From Gemmatimonadota bacterium (lineage in GTDB: Bacteria; Gemmatimonadota; Gemmatimonadetes; Gemmatimonadales; Gemmatimonadaceae), in the NCBI GenBank assembly GCA_021324775.1, contig JAJPIM010000007.1, positions 62,001 through 126,000 of the forward strand: 64,000 bases of DNA, given 5' to 3'. The position numbers and the translations under genes were made by a program. The notes beneath the pieces were generated by a model, which was given only the letters and a program-made list of their open reading frames with translations, was not told where the DNA came from and searched no databases. Below, piece after piece: positions 45,752-57,192 of this stretch; positions within the stretch are counted from its first letter, which is position 1, and each line of letters opens with the position of its first letter.

Positions 45752-47368
45752 CTACACGGACGGGAGCGCGGCGAGGAGCTTCTTACCGTTCGGCGTGCCC
45801 CATCCGGATACAGCGTCGTAGCCCTTGCCGGCCTGGTAGCCTCCGATTGCATCCGTCGTATTGTCGCCTGATGTCACGTCGGTGCATCCGAGCGCCCCGG
45901 CGGGAGTGCCGGTCGAGCCCCCTTTACCTTGATAGAGCACCGGCGTCAGGAAGCCGACGCGCTTTCCGGGTCCTCGTGCCGCGTTCATGAGCGCGATGAG
46001 GGATGCGCACAGCGGAGTGGCGGCGCTCGTCCCGCCGTTGGCTTGCGCCTGGCCGTCGACGACGAGGAGATACGGTGAGGCGACCCAGTCGGCGTTCGCG
46101 GCGACATCAGGCACAACGCGTCCGGCGATCGCACCCGGGTTGACCGATCGGATCTTCACCGCGTTCTGCCAGACCGGGCGCGGGAAGATGGCACTGCAGC
46201 CGCCGCCGGTGCTCCCCCCGTTGTCGGCGCGCAGACCGTCGCCCTCCTTCCACGCGATGTCAGGCTGCTTGCCGTTCTTCACCGGGATGGTCGTGCCGCC
46301 GACCGACAGGACGTAGGGACTCGAACCGGGGAAATCGACGTGGGCGTGGCCATCGGCGATGGCGTCGCTGGATCCATCATCACCAGCGGCGAGGCAGACC
46401 GTGACGCCGATCATCGCCGCTTCCTGCAGGGTCTCATTCACCTGCGTCATCGCCGCGGTGGTCCAGATGTCAGCGTCTTCCGCATATCCCCAGCTCGCCG
46501 AAACGACACCGGGGTCGTTCGCGGCATCGTGGACCGCGGCATCGATCGCGGTGATCCATCCCTGCTCCGTGAAATCGGCGAAGTAGGCGACGATCGTCGC
46601 TTTCGGGCAGACCCCGGCGACGACCTCGATATCCAGCATCACTTCGCCTTCCGCGCCATCGTGGGCGGAGGTTGAAGTGCCATCGGTGCTGATGGCACTG
46701 ACTTTGGGCACGCCAACGCCGGCGAGCGTGCAGAATTGCCGGAGGTCGTCCGCGAAGTAGCCGCCTCCGAACTCCAGGATGCCGACGGCCTGTCCGCTGC
46801 CGTCGCCGGGCGGGAAGTTGTAGTGCGTGGCGAGCTCGCTCGGGATGTACCAGGACGCCGGGACCGTCGCGGCCGAATGCATGCGTGTCGTACCGCGCAC
46901 CGGTTGGCGGCGCCTCCGGACCACGCGCCGGTTGTCGAGGCCGAAGACACCCTCGACGATGTTCTGGACGTCGACGGGCACATGGATCGATCCCACGCGT
47001 CCGCGATAGCTGTCGTCCGGGTGCACGTAGTCAAAGAGCCGGACGACGAAAGCCGCCTCCATGGCGGCGACGGTGCCGGAGAGCCGCACGGTGCGGGAGC
47101 CGGCGTCCGCGCGGACCGTGGTGAGACCGAGGCGCTTGAAGACGGCTGAGACCTTGGCGATGTCTTTGGGTGCGGCCCCGTATTTGGCGGCGAGCGTCCT
47201 GCGCGAGATCGTCGCGGCGGGGCGTCCGGTGAGCGCGGGAAGGGGCGCGATGCGGCGGAGCTTGAGCGAGACCTCGATCGTCGCATTGGCGTTCGCGCGG
47301 CCGGTGGCCCGGGCGCCGGGCATGGCGACGCGTTTGCTTCCCGGAAGAATCACGTGTCCAACGGCCAT
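45752..47368 (-). CDS. S53-family (kumamolisin-like) serine-carboxyl peptidase
   Basis: The 538 residues match a pro-S53 peptidase. The N-terminal pro-domain (about 30-150) ends near an RRRRQ cleavage-like stretch. The catalytic domain has Glu242 and Asp246 (GAEGEVMLDIEV), Asp330 of the oxyanion hole (AAGDDGSSD) and the nucleophile Ser448 in NGGTSAATP, all present and correctly spaced. The calcium site near the C-terminus (DVTSGDN ... GYDAVSGWGTPNG) is also recognisable. Activity at low pH is usual for the family. There is no evident signal peptide; secretion by another route or an intracellular role is open. GGAGAGG precedes the ATG. Confidence 0.92.
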   Translation of the reverse strand: MAVGHVILPGSKRVAMPGARATGRANANATIEVSLKLRRIAPLPALTGRPAATISRRTLAAKYGAAPKDIAKVSAVFKRLGLTTVRADAGSRTVRLSGTVAAMEAAFVVRLFDYVHPDDSYRGRVGSIHVPVDVQNIVEGVFGLDNRRVVRRRRQPVRGTTRMHSAATVPASWYIPSELATHYNFPPGDGSGQAVGILEFGGGYFADDLRQFCTLAGVGVPKVSAISTDGTSTSAHDGAEGEVMLDIEVVAGVCPKATIVAYFADFTEQGWITAIDAAVHDAANDPGVVSASWGYAEDADIWTTAAMTQVNETLQEAAMIGVTVCLAAGDDGSSDAIADGHAHVDFPGSSPYVLSVGGTTIPVKNGKQPDIAWKEGDGLRADNGGSTGGGCSAIFPRPVWQNAVKIRSVNPGAIAGRVVPDVAANADWVASPYLLVVDGQAQANGGTSAATPLCASLIALMNAARGPGKRVGFLTPVLYQGKGGSTGTPAGALGCTDVTSGDNTTDAIGGYQAGKGYDAVSGWGTPNGKKLLAALPSV

Positions 47369-47813
47369 TCGCGCCTCTCCTGTTCCGTGTTTCCCGTAAT
47401 CCGGTACCTATTGGTATGCGCGGGCAAACATCACCGCAATGCTGGTTGGCGAATGACAACGGTTCAGTCGCGAGTGAAGGCCGCCGGCGATGCCGCAAGA
47501 GTGCAGCAGCCCCGTCCGGTTTCGCGTGCGGCGCGTCTCATTTTCTGATGCGAGCGGAAGCATTTGTCGCAGCGAGTGTGGCACGGAGGAAGTGATGAGA
47601 CAGACTCGACACGGCCACATTTGCCCGTACGTCATCCGGTCACATGGCATCTATTGAGCAATGTTGAGCAACGCCCGAGCAACGCTGTGTCACACTTGCG
47701 AAACGGAATGGCTGGCTAAACATTAGCCCGCAACGGCTCACGCATCTGCGCTCGTTCGGTTGACGCATGGCTAACCGAGGACGCAGCGCCCTGAGAGGTC
47801 TTGTCCCATCGCG
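47369..47813. other. 445-base gap before the sigma/FecR operon
   Basis: No gene is recognised here. It contains the upstream regions of the S53 peptidase (minus) and of the ECF sigma factor (plus), and three spaced GAGCAA-type direct repeats at 47655-47686, listed separately. Confidence 0.5.
47655..47686 (+). promoter_or_regulatory. three spaced direct repeats upstream of the ECF sigma gene
   Basis: TTGAGCAATG, TTGAGCAACG and CCGAGCAACG follow one another with 10-11-base spacing about 130-160 bases before the sigma-factor start. One helical turn of spacing is usual for cooperative regulator binding. The role is inference. Confidence 0.35.
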
Positions 47814-48425
47814 ATGGAATCGGCGAGTAAGCTCCGTCCCGAACGTGTCGTCGCCGCGGATGCCGCCACGGACGCCGACTTGGTGGCTCGGATTCGAGCG
47901 GGAGACGAGCGAGCGTTCGAGACGATGTTCCGTGCCCACGCCGACACCTTGTGTCGTCTGGCGCACTATTACCTGGAGTCGACGGCGCTCGCGGAGGAGG
48001 TGGTACAAGACGTCCTCCTGCGCGTGTGGGAGCGGCGCACGGCACTGGTCGTGCGCGACAGCCTTCGCGCATATCTTCATGCCGCCGTGCGCAATCGCGC
48101 GCTCGATGCGATGAAAGCGGCCCGATCCGCATTAAGAACGGAACGGGCGGATCGGGCGCCCGGAGACATGCAGCCACCAGGGATGGGCCAAGCCGCGCGG
48201 TCTCCGCTCGAGGATCTCGAAACTCGCGAGCTTTCGGTCGCGCTCCGCACCGCGACAGACGGTCTCCCGGAGCGATGCCGCCAGGTGTTCAGGCTCCGGT
48301 GGGAGTTGCACCTCTCCTATTCGGAGATTGCCGAGCTTCTTCATATCTCGGTGAAAGGGGTAGAGAGGCACCGCCAGCGCGGGTTGGAGCGGCTCGCCAG
48401 GTCTCTTCGCGGATTCATGCCCTAA
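47814..48425 (+). CDS. ECF-subfamily RNA polymerase sigma factor (FecI-like)
   Basis: The 203 residues contain region 2 (LVARIRAGDERAFETMFRAHADTLCRLAHYYL ... AEEVVQDVLLRVWERR) and region 4 (ALRTATDGLPERCRQVFRLRWELHLSYSEIAELLHISVKGVERHRQRGLERL), with no region 3, as in ECF factors. The order sigma, FecR, SusC with an STN domain is that of surface-signalled uptake systems. The sigma factor should be released by FecR when the outer-membrane receptor is occupied and then transcribe this operon. Confidence 0.94.
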   Translation: MESASKLRPERVVAADAATDADLVARIRAGDERAFETMFRAHADTLCRLAHYYLESTALAEEVVQDVLLRVWERRTALVVRDSLRAYLHAAVRNRALDAMKAARSALRTERADRAPGDMQPPGMGQAARSPLEDLETRELSVALRTATDGLPERCRQVFRLRWELHLSYSEIAELLHISVKGVERHRQRGLERLARSLRGFMP

Positions 48426-48471
48426 CATCTGAAGGTGGGGTTTTCGCCGCCGGCGTCGTCCTTCTCAGCAT

Positions 48472-49533
48472 ATGGACACCATCGGCGGACCGTTCGGGGG
48501 CGGGGGCAGACTCTCGGCGGAGGATATTCGGCGGATCGAGCAGCACCTGGCTGGCTCGCTCTCGGCCTCAGAGGCAGAGGCGTTCGCCCAGTGGGTCGCC
48601 GCCGACCCGGCGCGGGGTCGTTTGGTCGCGGCGTTCGCCGAGTTATGGCGTGGCGATGGACCGGACGCCCCGTCGTTCGACATTCACGGCATGTGGGCGC
48701 GGATGGTGCCGCGCATCCGCGAGCGTCGCCGGGTTTTGTCGCTCATCCGGCGCGATGACCGGCAACTGCGGACTCGCGGACCGTGGTCGCGCGTTCCGGC
48801 TGCTGCGGCAGCAGCGGTCCTGATCGCGGTACTTAGTGTTGCCGGGTGGCTCGCCGTGCGTGCGGGGCCGTCCCGCGAACGGACGACATCGGTGGCGATG
48901 CGCGAGTTCTCGACGCGCCGGGGCCAGCGCGCCGATCTTCGGCTGGACGACGGAACGCAGGTCGTACTTGGGGCGGCGACAATCGTGCACATCCCCGACG
49001 ACTACGGGGATCGCACTCGCGACGTCTATCTCAACGGTGAAGCCTATTTTGTCGTGCGGCATGACGCCGCGCACCCGTTTGCGGTGCATACGGGTCACGC
49101 GACCATCCGGGACATCGGGACGCAGTTTGCCGTCACCGCGTACGACGATGCGACGCACACCGAAGTCGTGGTCGTCGATGGCGAGGTCAGCGTCGCGCAC
49201 ATCGCGCTCCGGCGTAACGATTTGGCGATCGTCGATTCGGCTGGGCAGCCGGCCGTGGTCCGGCACGGTGTTGACGCAGCCGCCGCGACTGGCTGGACCG
49301 AAGGGCGTCTGGTGCTCGAAGCGACGCCGTTTCAGGAAGTCGTCGCGGAACTCAGCCGGTGGTACGATCTCGACATCCAGCTCGCCGACCCCTCACTCGG
49401 CCGCCAGCAGCTGACCGTCACGTTCGGGTCGGAGAGTACCCGCCAAGTGCTTGATGCGTTGGCGATGCTCACACACACGCACTACGAGCAGCACGGCCGA
49501 ACTGTGACGTTCTCTGCCATTCCCGGAACGTGA
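48472..49533 (+). CDS. FecR-type anti-sigma regulator
   Basis: The 353 residues follow the FecR plan: an N-terminal cytoplasmic sigma-binding part (residues about 15-85, with DIRRIEQHLAGSLSASEAEAFAQWVAADP), one membrane helix (VPAAAAAAVLIAVLSVAGWLAV), the periplasmic FecR domain (DVYLNGEAYFVV, HTGHATIRDIGTQFAVTAY) and a C-terminal DUF4974-like part (FQEVVAELSRWYDLDIQL). It holds the sigma factor until contacted by the STN domain of the receptor. The receptor gene starts just after its stop. Confidence 0.92.
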   Translation: MDTIGGPFGGGGRLSAEDIRRIEQHLAGSLSASEAEAFAQWVAADPARGRLVAAFAELWRGDGPDAPSFDIHGMWARMVPRIRERRRVLSLIRRDDRQLRTRGPWSRVPAAAAAAVLIAVLSVAGWLAVRAGPSRERTTSVAMREFSTRRGQRADLRLDDGTQVVLGAATIVHIPDDYGDRTRDVYLNGEAYFVVRHDAAHPFAVHTGHATIRDIGTQFAVTAYDDATHTEVVVVDGEVSVAHIALRRNDLAIVDSAGQPAVVRHGVDAAAATGWTEGRLVLEATPFQEVVAELSRWYDLDIQLADPSLGRQQLTVTFGSESTRQVLDALAMLTHTHYEQHGRTVTFSAIPGT

Positions 49534-49577
49534 TCGAGCCGCGGAATCATCCACCTCCTTCACCGGCGGAGCACTCC

Positions 49578-52500
49578 ATGCTATCCCACGTCGCGATGCG
49601 GGCCGTGATGGCCTTCGCGATCCTGAGCACTCCGGTCGCAGCTCAGGGGACCTCCTCGTCTCCCGTGACCAGCCTGACGCTCAACCAAACCAGCGGGACG
49701 CCGCCAGGCACGTGGGTGAAGGCCACGAGTAGCGCCGCGGTCATTCTCAAGGAGCCAATCGCGCTCGACCTCCGCCTCGTCCCCCTCCAGGCCGCGTTGC
49801 GCGCGATCGGCAGCGCGGCCAACGTCACCATACAATTCGGGCCTGACGTCCTGACCAGCAAGGTGCGCGTCTCGCTGCACGTGGCGAACATGAGCGTGGC
49901 CGACGCGCTCTCGACCGTCCTCGAAGGGACCGGGCTGGCCGCGTACGTCTCACTTCGCGGTGACGCCGTCCTCGTGGGCCGGCCGCCGGCGGCAGAAGCG
50001 AGTCAACGCCAACCCGCCGCGACTCGCGTTCTCACCGGCCACGTGACCGATTCCGTCTCGTCCAATCCGGTGGGATCCGGTGACGTGTCCGTCAATCAGA
50101 CCCAGGCGACGGCGCCCATCCGAAACGACGGTTCGTTCTCGATCGTGGCACCGGCCGGCGATGTGACACTGCTCGTGCGGAGCGTCGGCTACGTGCCGCG
50201 AGCGTTGGCAGTCGCGGCTGGACAGGACACGGTGCGGGTTGTCCTGGCCCGGGATTATGCGCTGCTCAACCAGGTTGTCGTGACCGGACAGGCGACGGGC
50301 GTCACGAGGCAGAATCTTCCGAATTCGGTCGACATCGTGGACTCCGCTCAGTTGGAGCGGGTTCCCAACCCGACGGTCGAGCGCGCCATCCAGGGTGTTG
50401 CGCCGGGGGTCCATGTGTCCGAGAACAGCGGCGCACCTGGCGGCGGGTCGATCGTGCGTGTGCGGGGAGTCACGTCGATCTATGGTGCCTTCACGCCCCT
50501 ATACGTCGTAGATGGCGTGATCGTAAGTGACGCCAACCTCGGCACCGGCACGAACGGCGTGATTCACTCGAACGGTACGTCCCTGGAACCATCCAGCGAC
50601 AATCAGGACAATGGCGACAATCGTATTGCCGATCTGAACCCGTACGACATCGAGAGCATCGAGGTGCTGAAGGGCGCGGCCGCGTCGGCGATCTACGGAT
50701 CGAAGGCCGCAAATGGCGTCGTGGTCATCACGACCAAGAAGGGCCAGTCCGGTGCCCCGCAATTCACGATCACGGACCGCGAAGGCTTCTCGGAGCTCAG
50801 CCACGAGTTCGGCCATCGCTGTTTCACCGAGCAGCAGGCGGAGGCGACCTTCGGCCCACAGGCCGCGAATTCCTGGACGCCGACATGCAACGACTTCGAG
50901 CAGCAGCTCTACGGCGGCAAGCCGCTGTCCTACGACGTGAGCGCCAGTGCGAGCGGCGGATCGGCCTCGACACGGTACTACGCGTCGCTCCTCGACAACT
51001 ATCAGGGTGGCATCGTACCGAACACGGACGCAGGGAAACAGTCACTTCGCGTGAACGTCAATCAGGCGGTGGGCACGCGGCTCAACATGACGTTGAGCGC
51101 GCAGCTCCTTCACAGCGAGCGCGATCCCGGCATCACGCAGAACGGCAACAACGGCACGCCGATCGGCGGATCGATCGCGTACGGCGGCGCGACATGGCTC
51201 AATCTCGAACAGCAACCCAATGGATCGTACCCCGTCAACCCGTTTGCCGTCAGCAACCCGTTCCAGACCGTGGCGCTGTTTCAGAATCACGAGTCGGTGT
51301 GGAGATCGATCATCAGTGGAACCACTACGTATGACCTGTTCAAGACGAGCCAGCAGAGCCTGCAGTTCGTCGGAAATGGCGGCGTCGATCTCTTTACGCA
51401 GCGGAACAACGTTCTCGCACCGCCGCAGTTGTACTCCGAAGAGGCGTCCGCATTACCTGGCGCGTCGGTCGTCGCGTACGGCCAGAATCAGAACGCCAAC
51501 CTCAATCTGAATCTCGTACACATCTACCATTTCAGTGGCAGCCAGGCGACGACGCAGGTGGGGATGGAGTACGAGACCCAGGATCTGGACTATGACGGCA
51601 CTCTCGCGCAGGGGCTGGCTCAAGGTGTCAACGACATCAACGAGGCGCTCGCGGTACAGGTTCAGGAAAACCGGCAACGTGTACGTGACTTGGGATTGTT
51701 TGCACAGGAAGAGTTTCTGACACTCCACGATCGGCTGCTGCTGACCGTCGGCGCCCGCGCGGATCAAAGCAGTAACGATGGCAATCCAACCCAGCTGTAT
51801 TTCTATCCGAAGGCCTCGGCCTCGTACCGCTTGCCGATCCTGCCTCAGTACATCGACGAGTTCAAGATCCGGTTCGCGGCCGGCTTTTCCGGAAACGAAC
51901 CGTTGTACGGGCAGAAGTACACCGAACTGCTGCCGGGCAACATTGCCGGGTCCATTCCCACCGTCGCAATTCAAGGCACCACAGGCGCTTCCAATCTTCA
52001 GCCGGAGCGCGAACGGGAGTTGGAGACGGGCATCGATGCAGCGACGCTGCACCGCCGGCTCAACTTCGAGATCACGTTGTACGAAAAGGACGTCACCAAT
52101 CTTCTCCTTCAGCGTACGCTGGCTCCCACGACCGGCTTCACGTCGGAGTATTTCAACGGAGGTGCGCTTCGCAATCGTGGCGCCGAACTCTCCGTCACCG
52201 GCGTGCCTGTGCAACAGAGCGGGGGGGTGACCTGGACGACGACGGCCACGTACTACATGAGCCGGTGCATGATCACGTCGCTGTCCGTGCCCGCGTTTGA
52301 ACCGGCCAGCTTCCTGAACAGCCAGACGTTCGGCTACACCTTCATTCAGCCTGGGCGGTCGTGCACGCAGATCTACGGCCAGGACACACTCGGTGCGCGG
52401 CCCGGAGATGCCAAGCTGGGGGCGATCGGGACCTCCGTCGTCCGGGGCCTGGCGGATGCCGCGCCCAACTTCAATGGCTCATGGAACAACTCAGTGGACT

Positions 52501-52946
52501 ACCGGTTGTTTCACTTGACGTTGTTGTGGGACGCGCAAGTCGGCGGCGTGCTCGACAACATCTCCGAGTTCGAGTACGACGCGTCGGGTACGAGTCCTGA
52601 CTACCTCGTGCCCCGTAGCCCGGGACAGCTCACCGGCCAGCAGCGGATCGACGCCTTTGCGAGAACCGCACGGATCTACCTGCAGAATGTCAGTTACCTG
52701 AAGTTGAGGGAATTGACGGTGGGCATGGACCTGCCGCCGTCCTGGGTCAGCCGGATCGGCGTTCATTCACGCAACATCCGGCTCAGCGTGAGCGGCCAGA
52801 ACCTCTTCGTCTTCACTCCGTATCACGGCACGGGGGACCCCGAGGTCAATCAGGTGGCGACATCGGCCGCTCAAGAAGTGCCCTGGGATATCTGGACATA
52901 CCCGGAAAGCCGCACGTTCTGGTTCACGGTCAGCGCGGGTTTCTGA
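49578..52946 (+). CDS. SusC/RagA-type TonB-linked outer-membrane receptor with STN domain
   Basis: The 1122 residues (start 49578, with signal peptide MRAVMAFAILSTPVAAQ) have a secretin/TonB short N-terminal (STN) domain at about 60-136 (PLQAALRAIGSAANVTIQFG ... VADALSTVLEGTGL), a carboxypeptidase-like beta domain at about 150-230, the plug, and the SusC signature IEVLKGAAASAIYGSKAANGV near residues 360-380, followed by a large barrel ending in FTVSAGF. The STN domain marks it as a transducer that talks to FecR. A start at GTG 49530, overlapping the FecR stop, is an alternative. The imported nutrient is unknown. Confidence 0.93.
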   Translation: MLSHVAMRAVMAFAILSTPVAAQGTSSSPVTSLTLNQTSGTPPGTWVKATSSAAVILKEPIALDLRLVPLQAALRAIGSAANVTIQFGPDVLTSKVRVSLHVANMSVADALSTVLEGTGLAAYVSLRGDAVLVGRPPAAEASQRQPAATRVLTGHVTDSVSSNPVGSGDVSVNQTQATAPIRNDGSFSIVAPAGDVTLLVRSVGYVPRALAVAAGQDTVRVVLARDYALLNQVVVTGQATGVTRQNLPNSVDIVDSAQLERVPNPTVERAIQGVAPGVHVSENSGAPGGGSIVRVRGVTSIYGAFTPLYVVDGVIVSDANLGTGTNGVIHSNGTSLEPSSDNQDNGDNRIADLNPYDIESIEVLKGAAASAIYGSKAANGVVVITTKKGQSGAPQFTITDREGFSELSHEFGHRCFTEQQAEATFGPQAANSWTPTCNDFEQQLYGGKPLSYDVSASASGGSASTRYYASLLDNYQGGIVPNTDAGKQSLRVNVNQAVGTRLNMTLSAQLLHSERDPGITQNGNNGTPIGGSIAYGGATWLNLEQQPNGSYPVNPFAVSNPFQTVALFQNHESVWRSIISGTTTYDLFKTSQQSLQFVGNGGVDLFTQRNNVLAPPQLYSEEASALPGASVVAYGQNQNANLNLNLVHIYHFSGSQATTQVGMEYETQDLDYDGTLAQGLAQGVNDINEALAVQVQENRQRVRDLGLFAQEEFLTLHDRLLLTVGARADQSSNDGNPTQLYFYPKASASYRLPILPQYIDEFKIRFAAGFSGNEPLYGQKYTELLPGNIAGSIPTVAIQGTTGASNLQPERERELETGIDAATLHRRLNFEITLYEKDVTNLLLQRTLAPTTGFTSEYFNGGALRNRGAELSVTGVPVQQSGGVTWTTTATYYMSRCMITSLSVPAFEPASFLNSQTFGYTFIQPGRSCTQIYGQDTLGARPGDAKLGAIGTSVVRGLADAAPNFNGSWNNSVDYRLFHLTLLWDAQVGGVLDNISEFEYDASGTSPDYLVPRSPGQLTGQQRIDAFARTARIYLQNVSYLKLRELTVGMDLPPSWVSRIGVHSRNIRLSVSGQNLFVFTPYHGTGDPEVNQVATSAAQEVPWDIWTYPESRTFWFTVSAGF

Positions 52947-53005
52947 TGCGCCATCACCACACCGACACCAAGCCGAGTTTTCCCTACCCCACAAGGCGTG
53001 GCGCC

Positions 53006-54376
53006 ATGACAACGAGAACGAGCCTCGTGCGTGCGGCCGTCCTGGCCGCGACGGCGATTGTATGCGGGTGCAATTCACTGGACGCACCTGACGAAAACGG
53101 CCTTGCGCTGCAAGGTCTCGTGACGGCTCCGACCGTTACGGGCATCACGGATGCTTCCGAGGGACTCTTGTCCGGGATGCGGGGCGATGCGAGCCAGCTC
53201 ACGCAGAACTTCAGCATCTTCGGGCGCGAGGGGTACAACCTGGACCCGGGCGATCTGCAGCTCGTGCAGGAATACTTCCAGACCCTGGGCGACCTTGCGG
53301 TGTGGAGCAATCCGTACCGCACGATCAAGCTGGCGGATCTCATCCTCGGCGGCGTGAACGGCGTCGCGAGCTTTACCGCCCCTCAGAAGGCAGGCTTTCG
53401 CGGGTTTGCGATGACCGTCAAAGCGGTCGAGCTCCTGAACGTGGTTCGCAACGTCGACTCGAGCGGGGCGGCTCTGGACGCGTCGGCCGGTGCCGAGTCG
53501 GCGTTACCGCCGATCGTCCCGGCGGCGCAAGTATACGCCTACATCGGCGCTCTGCTCGACTCGGCGCAGACCGCTCTCCTGGCGGCGGGGCCATCGTTCG
53601 CGTTCAATCTCGGCGCAGGATTCACCGGCTTCAATACGCCCGCGACGTTTCTACAGTTCAACCGTGCCATCCGTGTCCGCGCGGATGTTGACGTGCAGAA
53701 CTTCGGGCAGGCGCTCAGCGACCTGAGTACGTCGTTCGTCAGTACCTCACAGCCTCTTTCCTACGGGGTGTACTTCGAGTTCAGTACCGCTTCGGGTGAC
53801 GTAGCCAATCCGCTGTTCGAATCCACTCCGCGGTACTACTACGCGCATCCATCGCTGGCGGATTCCGCGCAAATGAAATCAGACGCCACACCGGACGATC
53901 GCTTGCTGACGAAAGTCAGGCAAATTCCGCCAATCACGCGAGCCGGTCTGACGACGCAGTGGACGTTCCAGATCTATTCCGGTCCGGGGGCTCCGATGGC
54001 GATCATCCGCAACGAGGAGCTCATCCTGCTGCGCGCGGAGGCAAATCTCGGCCTGGGAAACAACGCGGCGGCGATCCAGGACATCAATTTCGTTCGCACG
54101 ACGTCTGGGGGCCTGCCTCCGATTTCGAGTCCGTACGTCGCCGTGGCCGGCCAGCCGCCGACGCTGCTCCGCGAGCTTCTCTACGAGAAACGGTACTCGC
54201 TGATGTGGGAACCGGGTTCGAGTAGCTGGCTCGATGCTCGCCACTACGGTACGCTTGCCGCGTTGCCGCACGATTTGCCTGGGTTCGTCGTGTTCCCGTA
54301 TTGCTACATCCCTCTGGTCGAATGTCAGGCGCGTGACAACGCCCCAGCCGGGTGCAAGCCGCCTGGGGGCGTGTGA
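53006..54376 (+). CDS. SusD/RagB-family outer-membrane lipoprotein
   Basis: ATG at 53006 gives a lipoprotein signal (LVRAAVLAATAIVCGC); an ATG at 52946 that overlaps the receptor stop (TGATG) is an alternative. The 456 residues are mostly helical, with the expected C-terminal pattern (IIRNEELILLRAEANLGLGNNAAAIQDINFVRTTSGG ... ELLYEKRYSLMWEPGSSSWLDARHYG) of the SusD substrate-binding family. With the SusC gene it makes the lid-and-channel uptake pair. Confidence 0.9.
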   Translation: MTTRTSLVRAAVLAATAIVCGCNSLDAPDENGLALQGLVTAPTVTGITDASEGLLSGMRGDASQLTQNFSIFGREGYNLDPGDLQLVQEYFQTLGDLAVWSNPYRTIKLADLILGGVNGVASFTAPQKAGFRGFAMTVKAVELLNVVRNVDSSGAALDASAGAESALPPIVPAAQVYAYIGALLDSAQTALLAAGPSFAFNLGAGFTGFNTPATFLQFNRAIRVRADVDVQNFGQALSDLSTSFVSTSQPLSYGVYFEFSTASGDVANPLFESTPRYYYAHPSLADSAQMKSDATPDDRLLTKVRQIPPITRAGLTTQWTFQIYSGPGAPMAIIRNEELILLRAEANLGLGNNAAAIQDINFVRTTSGGLPPISSPYVAVAGQPPTLLRELLYEKRYSLMWEPGSSSWLDARHYGTLAALPHDLPGFVVFPYCYIPLVECQARDNAPAGCKPPGGV

Positions 54377-54412
54377 CGTAGCGGCCAGACATTTATCCAT
54401 CAGGTGCCATTG

Positions 54413-56350
54413 ATGCCACGCAAACGCTCTCGTGCAGGCGACGAATCCTTGGGCATGGACGCCAATATCACGCGCAAGGATTTTCTCAATACTTCGCTGC
54501 TCGGGTTGGGTGCGGCGTTGCTGCACGCACCGCCACCGGCAGCTCTCGTGGCGCAGTCCGGTGGCGACGCCACCAGCCCGCCGGAGCACATGGCGGATCC
54601 GTGGACCGGGTATGGCGGTGTCGGCGACTACGCTTCCGCGAACGGTAACACGGCGCCCGTGCTGGCTGCCGCGCACAAGATTCGGGACGGAGTCTATGCC
54701 AAGCTGCCTGCCGACACGACCGATACCGGGCAGGTATACGACCTGGTCATTGTCGGCGGGGGGATCTCGGGGTTGACTGCCGCCTACTATTTCCAGAAGG
54801 CGGCCGGGGGATCCAAGACGTGCCTCCTACTGGAAAATCATCCCATCTTCGGTGGTGAGGCGCGCCAGAACGAGTTTCTCGTCGGCGGCTACCGTTTGCT
54901 CGGCCCGCAAGGTTCGAACGATTTTGGCGTGCCGCACGCGGGATCCGGCACCCAGAGTGACGAGATCTGGACCGACCTCAAGCTGCCGCGCGAGTTCAAG
55001 TATCAGGATTGGGATCCCAACCTCAAGCCGCTCCGATTCCAACTCGACAACTACGCCAACATGGACGGGGTAGACGAAACCCAGGTCGATGTCGGCTACT
55101 ACTTCGATGAGAACTCCGGCGTATCGAAGCCGATCTGGATGCTCAACATCTGGAAGAACAATCTGGAGGGCACGCCGTACTCCGACGAGGTCAAGCGGGA
55201 TCTGCTCAAGTGGCGCCATGCTACGGGCGAGAGCACCGATGCATTCCGCCGAATGCTTGACGGCATTACCTATCGCGACTACCTCGAAAAGACGCTCGGC
55301 CTACGTCCCGAGGTGACCAAAGTCGTCGAGCCGGTCATCGGACTGATCAACGGGGCGAGTCCTGACGCCGTCTCGGCGTTCGCGGCGTCGCAGATCGGCA
55401 TGCCGGGCGTCGCACGCCAGCGCCCGGCCACCGGTGATCTCCCGCAATCGTTTCCGGGCGGGAACTCGACGTTCGGCCGCTACCTGGTTCGCGAGTTGAT
55501 CCCGGCTGCGATGCCCGCGGGGACGGATTTCGAAGAAATGCTCATGGCTCCCGTGGACTTCGCGGCGCTCGACCGCCCAGGACAGCCGGTCCGGATTCGC
55601 CTCGGTGCTCTCGCGGTCCGGGTTCAGCACGCGGCCGGGGCGGGATCGGCCGGCGATGTCGAAGTCGCTTACGCGAAAGCCGGACGCGTCTACCGCGTCA
55701 AAGCCCACAAGGTGATCATGGCTTCGGGTGGTTGGGTCAACAAGCATATCTTGACGGACATTCCAGCCGACATGAAGGCGGCCTACGGCGAGTTCTGCTA
55801 CGGCTCCGCGCTCGTGGTGAACGTCGCACTCAGGAACTGGCGCTTCCTGTACAAGCTGGGAGCGCCAGCGAGCCGCTGGTATGGCGACGGATTCGGCTTC
55901 TGCTGCAACATCCGCAGGCCCATGGTAGCCGGCGGTTACAGCCCGCCTTTGCACCCGGACAAGCCAATCGTGATGACGTATTACGTCGGCCTCTATACAC
56001 CAGGCCGATCGGCGTACGAACAAGGCGTGTTGGCACGCGCGCGACTGCTCTCGCTATCCTATGCCGATTACGAGCGCCAATGCCGCGAGCACATGGTGAA
56101 ACTATTTGCGGACGCGGGCTTCAGCCCCAAACGAGACATCGCGGGGATCATCCTGAATCGGTGGGGACACGCCCGAGTACTCCAGCCTCCCGGGTTCTAT
56201 TTCGGCCGCAACGGTGCGCCGCCGGGCCGCGAGATCGTGGAGAAGGGGTATGGCAACATCGCGATTGGCCATTCCGAGCTTAACGGACATCAGAGCGTCG
56301 GTGGGGCCATGGCTCAGGGGAAGCGCGCGGCAGAGCAAGTGCTGGCGTGA
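54413..56350 (+). CDS. Tat-exported flavoprotein, spermidine-dehydrogenase-like
   Basis: The start is ATG 54413 (GTG 54404 and ATG 54455 possible). A Tat-like signal follows (NITRKDFLNTSLLGLGAALL), with Arg-Lys rather than Arg-Arg. The FAD-binding fold starts near residue 112 (DLVIVGGGISGLTAAYYFQKAAG, then LLENHPIFGGEARQNEFLVGG). The long substrate region (RDYLEKTLGLRPEV) and the C-terminal FAD contact (AIGHSELNGHQSVGGAMAQGKRAAEQVL) are as in SpdH-type spermidine dehydrogenases. Polyamine or related amine oxidation in the periplasm is likely; the exact substrate is not. As the last gene of the sigma/FecR/SusCD unit it suggests that the imported molecule is the one oxidised. Confidence 0.85.
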   Translation: MPRKRSRAGDESLGMDANITRKDFLNTSLLGLGAALLHAPPPAALVAQSGGDATSPPEHMADPWTGYGGVGDYASANGNTAPVLAAAHKIRDGVYAKLPADTTDTGQVYDLVIVGGGISGLTAAYYFQKAAGGSKTCLLLENHPIFGGEARQNEFLVGGYRLLGPQGSNDFGVPHAGSGTQSDEIWTDLKLPREFKYQDWDPNLKPLRFQLDNYANMDGVDETQVDVGYYFDENSGVSKPIWMLNIWKNNLEGTPYSDEVKRDLLKWRHATGESTDAFRRMLDGITYRDYLEKTLGLRPEVTKVVEPVIGLINGASPDAVSAFAASQIGMPGVARQRPATGDLPQSFPGGNSTFGRYLVRELIPAAMPAGTDFEEMLMAPVDFAALDRPGQPVRIRLGALAVRVQHAAGAGSAGDVEVAYAKAGRVYRVKAHKVIMASGGWVNKHILTDIPADMKAAYGEFCYGSALVVNVALRNWRFLYKLGAPASRWYGDGFGFCCNIRRPMVAGGYSPPLHPDKPIVMTYYVGLYTPGRSAYEQGVLARARLLSLSYADYERQCREHMVKLFADAGFSPKRDIAGIILNRWGHARVLQPPGFYFGRNGAPPGREIVEKGYGNIAIGHSELNGHQSVGGAMAQGKRAAEQVLA

Positions 56351-56642: not shown

Positions 56643-57074
56643 TCACGCCGGCTGCGACTTCCGTGGGCGCCCACCCTTGACTCCGTTCGCCGGGGACGCG
56701 CGCGCTCGAGCGGGGCTTTTGGTGCTTCCGCCGATACGTCCAAGCTCGCGCATTGCGGCTGCCGGATGCGGCCAGCCGGCGAGAGCAAGGATGCCCCCCA
56801 CCTCGTATTGCACATCCACCTGATCCCAGCACACGCCCCACCCGCCTGGACTGACATGCACATCCGTCAGGACGTCCTCTCCCGCACCCTTGAGCGCCCG
56901 GAGGAGAGCGATCGGCACGGTTACCACGACTCCGCTAGGCAGTGTGACTTGGATGGCGCGGGATTTCGGTAGATAACTGGCTTGCGTCGCCCGCACTTCG
57001 AACGGCACCTTGCGCTTCGTCGCGCGCCGCAGTTGGGTCGCGATTTCCGCGTCTGTCGGTCTAGGTCGCGCCAT
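56643..57074 (-). CDS. DUF2442-family protein (antitoxin-like), no partner seen
   Basis: ATG at 57074 follows GGAGGA with a suitable spacing; the longer open frame upstream is not used. The 143 residues have an N-terminal basic region and then the DUF2442 core: ASYLPKSRAIQVTLPSGVVVTVPIALLRALKG ... VHVSPGGWGVCWDQVDVQYEVGGILAL, with a Ser/Arg/Lys-rich tail. DUF2442 proteins usually accompany a DUF4160 toxin as antitoxins. No such partner lies beside it, only a lactate-permease remnant. A short inverted repeat precedes the start and may be its operator. Confidence 0.8.
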   Translation of the reverse strand: MARPRPTDAEIATQLRRATKRKVPFEVRATQASYLPKSRAIQVTLPSGVVVTVPIALLRALKGAGEDVLTDVHVSPGGWGVCWDQVDVQYEVGGILALAGWPHPAAAMRELGRIGGSTKSPARARASPANGVKGGRPRKSQPA

Positions 57075-57086
57075 CGATCTTCCTCC

Positions 57087-57107
57087 ATAACCTAGCGCCT
57101 GGGTTAT
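57087..57107. promoter_or_regulatory. inverted repeat before the DUF2442 gene
   Basis: ATAACC (57087-57092) and GGTTAT (57102-57107) flank a 9-base spacer, 13 bases upstream of the DUF2442 start. The placement fits an autoregulatory operator; the arms are short, so this is tentative. Confidence 0.4.
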
Positions 57108-57192
57108 ATCAAGCAGGGCCAATCTTGGCGACACTTCTGATGGCCGCCCGGAGTTTGGACGCTGTTGATTCTGCCCCGGCTGACTCCGTTCC

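Follow-up and report, generated by a model that had tools for sequence, protein, structure and literature searches.

Introduction

SusC/SusD pairs (SusCD) import into the periplasm and are by default read as glycan importers, and FecI/FecR/STN sets are known as signalling systems. A precedent for a non-sugar ligand is RagAB of Porphyromonas gingivalis, a SusCD-type peptide transporter. Spermidine dehydrogenase (SpdH) of Pseudomonas aeruginosa (PaSpdH; structures 7d9f-7d9j) oxidises C-N bonds and reduces its own heme b, which is held by His54 and His562 (PMC12564564), and it has a strong twin-arginine (Tat) signal (PMC11107197). In this study we analysed a stretch of 64,000 nucleotides from a Gemmatimonadota soil bacterium (contig JAJPIM010000007.1, positions 62,001 to 126,000; the whole stretch is called the window), in which genes for an extracytoplasmic function (ECF) sigma factor, FecR, a SusC protein with an STN domain, SusD and a flavoprotein of the SpdH superfamily that is predicted to be exported form a single run.

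Like PaSpdH, the window enzyme shows the SpdH fold, a binding motif for flavin adenine dinucleotide (FAD), both heme-ligand histidines and, in an R-K variant, a twin-arginine-like signal. Unlike PaSpdH, with which it shares 27-28% identity, it belongs to a separate clade (clade A; PaSpdH is in clade B), has two pocket residues replaced and is encoded in an ECF/FecR/SusCD operon. The window shares with the FecI-FecR-STN SusC/SusD systems of Bacteroidota the sigma factor, FecR with a FecR_C domain, STN-SusC and SusD in the same order; however, where those systems have a gene for a glycan enzyme, its terminal gene codes for a flavocytochrome dehydrogenase, and its phylum is Gemmatimonadota. RagAB is a SusC/SusD-type pair with a non-sugar ligand as well, and the fold matches of the window SusD include RagB (6sln, Z 27.2). 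Yet the comparison showed no special closeness of the window SusD to RagAB over other SusD proteins, and RagAB is without a dehydrogenase partner. Elsewhere in this genome, a cluster on contig C10 also combines SusCD with an SpdH-superfamily enzyme, but there the enzyme is of clade B, SusD is of the SusD-like_2 type, none of the FecR genes of the genome is nearby and dedicated polyamine genes are present. The component families are known, and no such combination of them was on record in the sources searched; a SusCD or TonB receptor tied to polyamine uptake was not found in the open-access literature searched. A first-pass annotation of the window, made from its letters alone, had spoken of an unrecognised nutrient class, which is too strong a term with the peptide transporter RagAB already on record.

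We propose, with a probability of about 0.5, that the window operon is a cell-surface-signalling system for the import and periplasmic oxidation of an amine-type ligand other than a polyamine. Gene content, gene order, conservation, fold, heme-ligand residues, loss of pocket residues, phylogeny, linkage statistics and the C10 cluster were computed and are described below.

Results

Fold, cofactor sites and phylogeny of the window flavoprotein

The P. aeruginosa SpdH entries were the sole sequence relatives of the flavoprotein in the PDB at E<=0.001 (phmmer E 9e-56). Its predicted structure matched 7d9h best with a Z of 29.6 and an rmsd of 4.2 Å over 528 residues, and an FAD-binding motif was found within this SpdH fold. 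Monoamine oxidase, putrescine oxidase and L-amino-acid oxidases followed with Z values of 22-23. The heme pocket was assessed by alignments, in which the predicted heme-b ligands of the window enzyme, H91 and H589, are the counterparts of His54 and His562 of PaSpdH (PDB-sequence numbering). At each of the two positions, 87 of 94 scored relatives in clade A carry histidine. Both histidines are replaced (Q/K and Y) in seven relatives from Nitrospirota (L094, L098, L100, L108, L133, L135, L140), and this joint loss fits a ligand pair. A loss of the heme site, initially suspected from an RGSHPG motif, was rejected because by residue numbering His54 is a later, invariant histidine. Thus the window enzyme resembles SpdH in fold and cofactor sites.

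The SpdH structures include two mutants, D282A (7d9i) and Y443A (7d9j), and we took Asp282 and Tyr443 as presumptive pocket residues. The window enzyme has Leu314 and Val471 in their place, and the alignment showed neither Asp282 nor Tyr443 in any of 94 clade A sequences. Tyr443 is the stronger SpdH marker because it is kept in 36/36 clade B sequences of the alignment versus 9/36 for Asp282. In a midpoint-rooted tree clade A was monophyletic (support 0.993) and split from clade B with PaSpdH (1.0), so that the window enzyme did not group with PaSpdH. Its place in a separate clade and the loss of both Asp282 and Tyr443 make it improbable that the window enzyme is a spermidine dehydrogenase.

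The flavoprotein probably starts at ATG 54413. Its Tat-like motif, ITRKDFLN, has R-K, as in 4 near relatives, while 89 of 94 relatives have R-R; TatC is encoded in the genome. Judged by these sequence features Tat export is likely. The first-pass description of a Tat-exported SpdH-like flavoprotein was therefore right about the superfamily and needs qualification in its Tat part, where the motif departs from R-R and export is a prediction.

The SusC/SusD pair

The window SusC reached 438 bits with TIGR04056 (cut-off 368), and the TIGR04057 signature was over its cut-off with 59 bits. The STN domain that had been noted on this protein (PF07660) was recovered, narrowly over the cut-off with 30.0 against 28.4 bits. 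SusD, probably starting at ATG 53006, scored 19.6 with PF07980, under the cut-off of 23.1. Its predicted structure has the SusD fold with best Z values of 29.9 to 3kez and 3jq1 (rmsd 3.3 and 2.9 Å, respectively, over 374 residues), and the lipobox Cys42 is almost invariant among its relatives. The locus thus has a SusC/RagA-family barrel and a neighbouring SusD-fold lipoprotein.

The window SusD family is present in 123 of 249 genomes of the phylum with varied neighbours, and was rejected as a marker of amine systems. The closest relatives of the window SusCD outside the genus adjoin sarcosine-oxidase-like genes and an MFS transporter (G250:C64), S9 peptidases or, at G250:C213, an amino-acid dehydrogenase of the Glu/Leu/Phe/Val type. 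In this small sample the neighbours of the window SusCD group speak for nitrogenous ligands over glycans.

Sigma factor, FecR and a candidate promoter

In FecR both PF04773 and FecR_C were above cut-off, and hydropathy showed a single transmembrane segment at about residues 111-129, in agreement with the membrane-spanning protein first annotated. A FecI-like sigma factor, a FecR with one transmembrane segment and periplasmic FecR/FecR_C domains, and STN on the receptor, the parts of a cell-surface-signalling system, are all present. A candidate ECF-type element ahead of the sigma gene has its blocks conserved in the upstream region of the congener G002. It has one exact match in the window, with 0 expected from shuffles, and may be the sigma factor's own promoter. 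The count of sigma-70 promoters within the operon was no higher than in shuffled sequence.

Operon structure and conservation

The run of genes occupies 47814-56350 of the plus strand. Coordinates, family matches and gaps uphold the first-pass account of five closely spaced genes. The intergenic distances in gene order are 46 bp, an overlap, another overlap and about 36 bp, which is why the five genes are probably one transcription unit. The five-gene order recurs in one of the two congeners, G002 (palsa_1248), where SusD and the flavoprotein have 81-85% protein identity to those of the window. G001, the remaining member of the genus, has no SusCD beside its closest SpdH-family genes, which are 44-46% alike. 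In the window genome 10 SusC genes pass the cut-off, three FecR genes are present and SpdH-family genes occur at three loci: C27, which is the window, C44 and C10. Two of these three loci are within 3 genes of a SusC gene, for which a rough estimate gives a chance of about 7e-4.

SusCD linked to true SpdH genes

Contig C10 carries two SpdH genes with E values to PaSpdH of 1e-162 and 6e-147, far above the match of the window enzyme, and the first of them retains Asp282 and Tyr443. The SusC/SusD pair of this locus has a SusD of a different family (PF12771, SusD-like_2). Transport genes comprise two Pot-type permease gene sets, a PotA-type ATPase and PotD-like binding proteins. The catabolic genes code for aldehyde dehydrogenases of the succinate-semialdehyde (SSADH) and betaine/aminobutyraldehyde types, a DAO oxidase, an amine oxidase and a GABA transaminase over its cut-off. 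None of the three FecR genes of the genome is located here. The core of the cluster is conserved in G001 and G002. Tandem arrangements of SusC, SusD and SpdH genes were seen in G079 and G109 (Table 1), which belong to two other Gemmatimonadota families. Three independent SusCD-SpdH arrangements in about 43 clade B loci correspond to p~0.01 if the chance at each locus is simply guessed to be 1%. This linkage suggests that SusCD can be an amine importer and is the best support for that view, although it is located outside the window run. The idea of a polyamine SusCD is better supported at C10 than at the window locus.

Clade A genes in other phyla

We inspected the neighbourhoods of clade A genes at 80 relatives' loci in named genomes. 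TonB-dependent receptors were enriched beside clade A genes (8/150 adjacent versus 7/616 distant, p=0.003), with examples in Gluconacetobacter and Novacetimonas (receptor, enzyme, multicopper oxidase) and in Woeseiaceae. In acetic acid bacteria (L074:6366-12236 and L075) the TonB receptor gene, the window-type enzyme gene and an overlapping multicopper oxidase gene form an apparent operon; the pair of enzyme and multicopper oxidase is present in L076 and L077, too. A metagenome-assembled genome of Caulobacter (L085:7456-15007) has an ECF sigma factor, FecR, a window-type enzyme and a RidA-like gene in that order, and an opposing adjacent TonB receptor with a sub-threshold STN domain. This arrangement parallels the window set independently. 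RidA-family proteins have imines as substrates, and imines are products of amine oxidation. A spermidine-synthase-like gene was near the clade A enzyme in 15 loci (L082 and 14 more), nearly all of Nitrospirota. In these loci the window-type enzyme gene is followed by the spermidine-synthase-like gene and a small membrane protein gene in conserved order. Taken together the neighbours of clade A favour amine chemistry without naming a substrate.

Features and flanking genes

Table 1. Coordinates of the operon, its candidate promoter and the SusCD-SpdH loci compared with it (positions refer to the window unless a locus is named)
Feature	Position	Strand	Basis or remark
Candidate ECF-type promoter element, CACTTGCGAAACGG-N13-ACATT	47693..47724	+	about 90 nt before the sigma gene
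FecI-like ECF sigma factor, 203 aa	47814..48425	+	TIGR02985 128.5 bits (cut-off 126.4); Sigma70_r2/r4_2
FecR anti-sigma/sensor, 353 aa	48472..49533	+	PF04773 E 6e-19; PF16344 (FecR_C) E 3e-15; hydropathy
SusC-type TonB-dependent transporter with N-terminal STN, 1138 aa	49530..52946	+	TIGR04056, TIGR04057; STN, CarbopepD_reg_2, Plug
SusD-type surface lipoprotein, 476 aa as open reading frame	52946..54376	+	predicted fold; lipobox Cys42; PF07980 sub-threshold
FAD/heme-b flavocytochrome of SpdH superfamily clade A, predicted exported	54404..56350	+	phmmer, fold, residues, tree
Polyamine catabolic cluster	G000:C10:14500-39500 (L032, L059); also L050, L054		core kept in three genus species
Tandem SusC-SusD-SpdH	L262:3-4428 (G079)	one strand	tight spacing; SusC cut by contig end
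Tandem SpdH-SusC-SusD	L277:7416-14403 (G109)	one strand	tight spacing

On the minus strand the operon is flanked directly upstream by a gene for a pro-kumamolisin-type secreted protease (45752-47368) and directly downstream by one for a DUF2442 protein (56643-57134). In G002 a lactate-permease gene lies 82 bp past the enzyme gene in the same direction (L034:4527-6146), and there is none at this place in the window. A role of the lactate permease as a constant partner was unsupported in the window genome, whose lactate permease is located elsewhere. A link of the locus to defence was looked for and nothing relevant was seen.

Discussion

We favor the view that the window operon serves an amine-type ligand. 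SusD and SusC would bind and import a small nitrogen-containing compound, and in the ligand-loaded SusC the STN domain would touch FecR in the periplasm. FecR would then free the sigma factor and the whole operon would be induced. The FAD flavoprotein, predicted to be exported and to carry a bis-histidine heme b, would oxidise a C-N bond of the ligand in the periplasm, and electrons would presumably pass via the heme to a periplasmic acceptor. The system as such is backed by the five-gene order in the congener, by the ECF-FecR-enzyme-RidA-like set of Caulobacter and by the enrichment of TonB receptors. An amine-type ligand is suggested because amine and amino-acid oxidases come next after SpdH among the fold matches of the enzyme, and because SusCD of the same genome and the same phylum pair with true SpdH.

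Several points weigh against this proposal. Among the 80 loci SusCD adjoins the clade A enzyme in the congener alone, and a general linkage of clade A with SusCD was rejected at 1/80 loci. The adjacency is confined to two species of one genus, and clade A genes are mostly orphans in unrelated contexts. Rare adjacency had been named by the first-pass annotation as a finding that would speak against its reading, and this applies in part: SusCD stands beside the enzyme only in the congener, but other TonB receptors are enriched. The lactate permease that follows the enzyme gene of the congener could indicate an organic acid, and the R-K variant of the Tat motif may weaken export. Asp282 and Tyr443 are considered pocket residues from the mutant structures only. 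Finally, the amine nature of the substrate is inferred, as are signalling, export and the direction of electron flow.

Import of spermidine, putrescine or another polyamine by the window SusCD with oxidation by the window enzyme would agree with SpdH being the closest solved relative, with the SusCD-SpdH linkage to polyamine genes elsewhere in the genome and with the 15 loci where spermidine-synthase-like genes stand beside mostly Nitrospirota clade A genes. Yet every clade A member is missing Asp282 and Tyr443, the window locus is without a polyamine gene, and two true SpdH genes, accompanied by a SusCD of their own, are already present in the genome. We consider a polyamine at this locus quite improbable, and spermidine or spermine is probably not the ligand. 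The first-pass suggestion of an amine or polyamine thus gains support where it concerns SusCD serving amines in general, by C10 and the two arrangements elsewhere in the phylum, and loses it where it concerns a polyamine at the window.

The tight spacing and the order preserved in the congener argue against the flavoprotein being an unrelated passenger of an ordinary peptide or glycan SusCD under FecI/FecR control, as do the two of three SpdH-family loci beside SusC and the receptor neighbours that recur in other phyla. S9 peptidases beside other relatives of the window SusCD and the clade A enzymes that mostly do without SusCD fit such a passenger, which we regard as unlikely. FecIR/STN sets are best known for iron, and the enzyme is predicted to bind heme; it could accordingly reduce or modify a metal complex or siderophore in an iron or heme system. 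This we deem very improbable, with a transporter of the SusC/SusD and not the siderophore type, and fold neighbours that are amine oxidases and dehydrogenases.

With an amine-type ligand at the window, a wider view of Gemmatimonadota comes into reach, which we advance tentatively and at somewhat less than even odds. SusC/SusD pairs of this phylum would be outer-membrane amine importers, for polyamines where they accompany true SpdH (C10, G079, G109), and for a different amine at the window, together with a new, FecI/FecR-controlled clade of heme-flavin amine dehydrogenases. Clade A is a widespread clade of predicted heme-flavin dehydrogenases, for which the sources searched gave no substrate. 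If SusCD imports amines here, substrates predicted for soil metagenomes from the number of SusCD pairs would have to be revised, and an active outer-membrane route of polyamine uptake would become directly testable.

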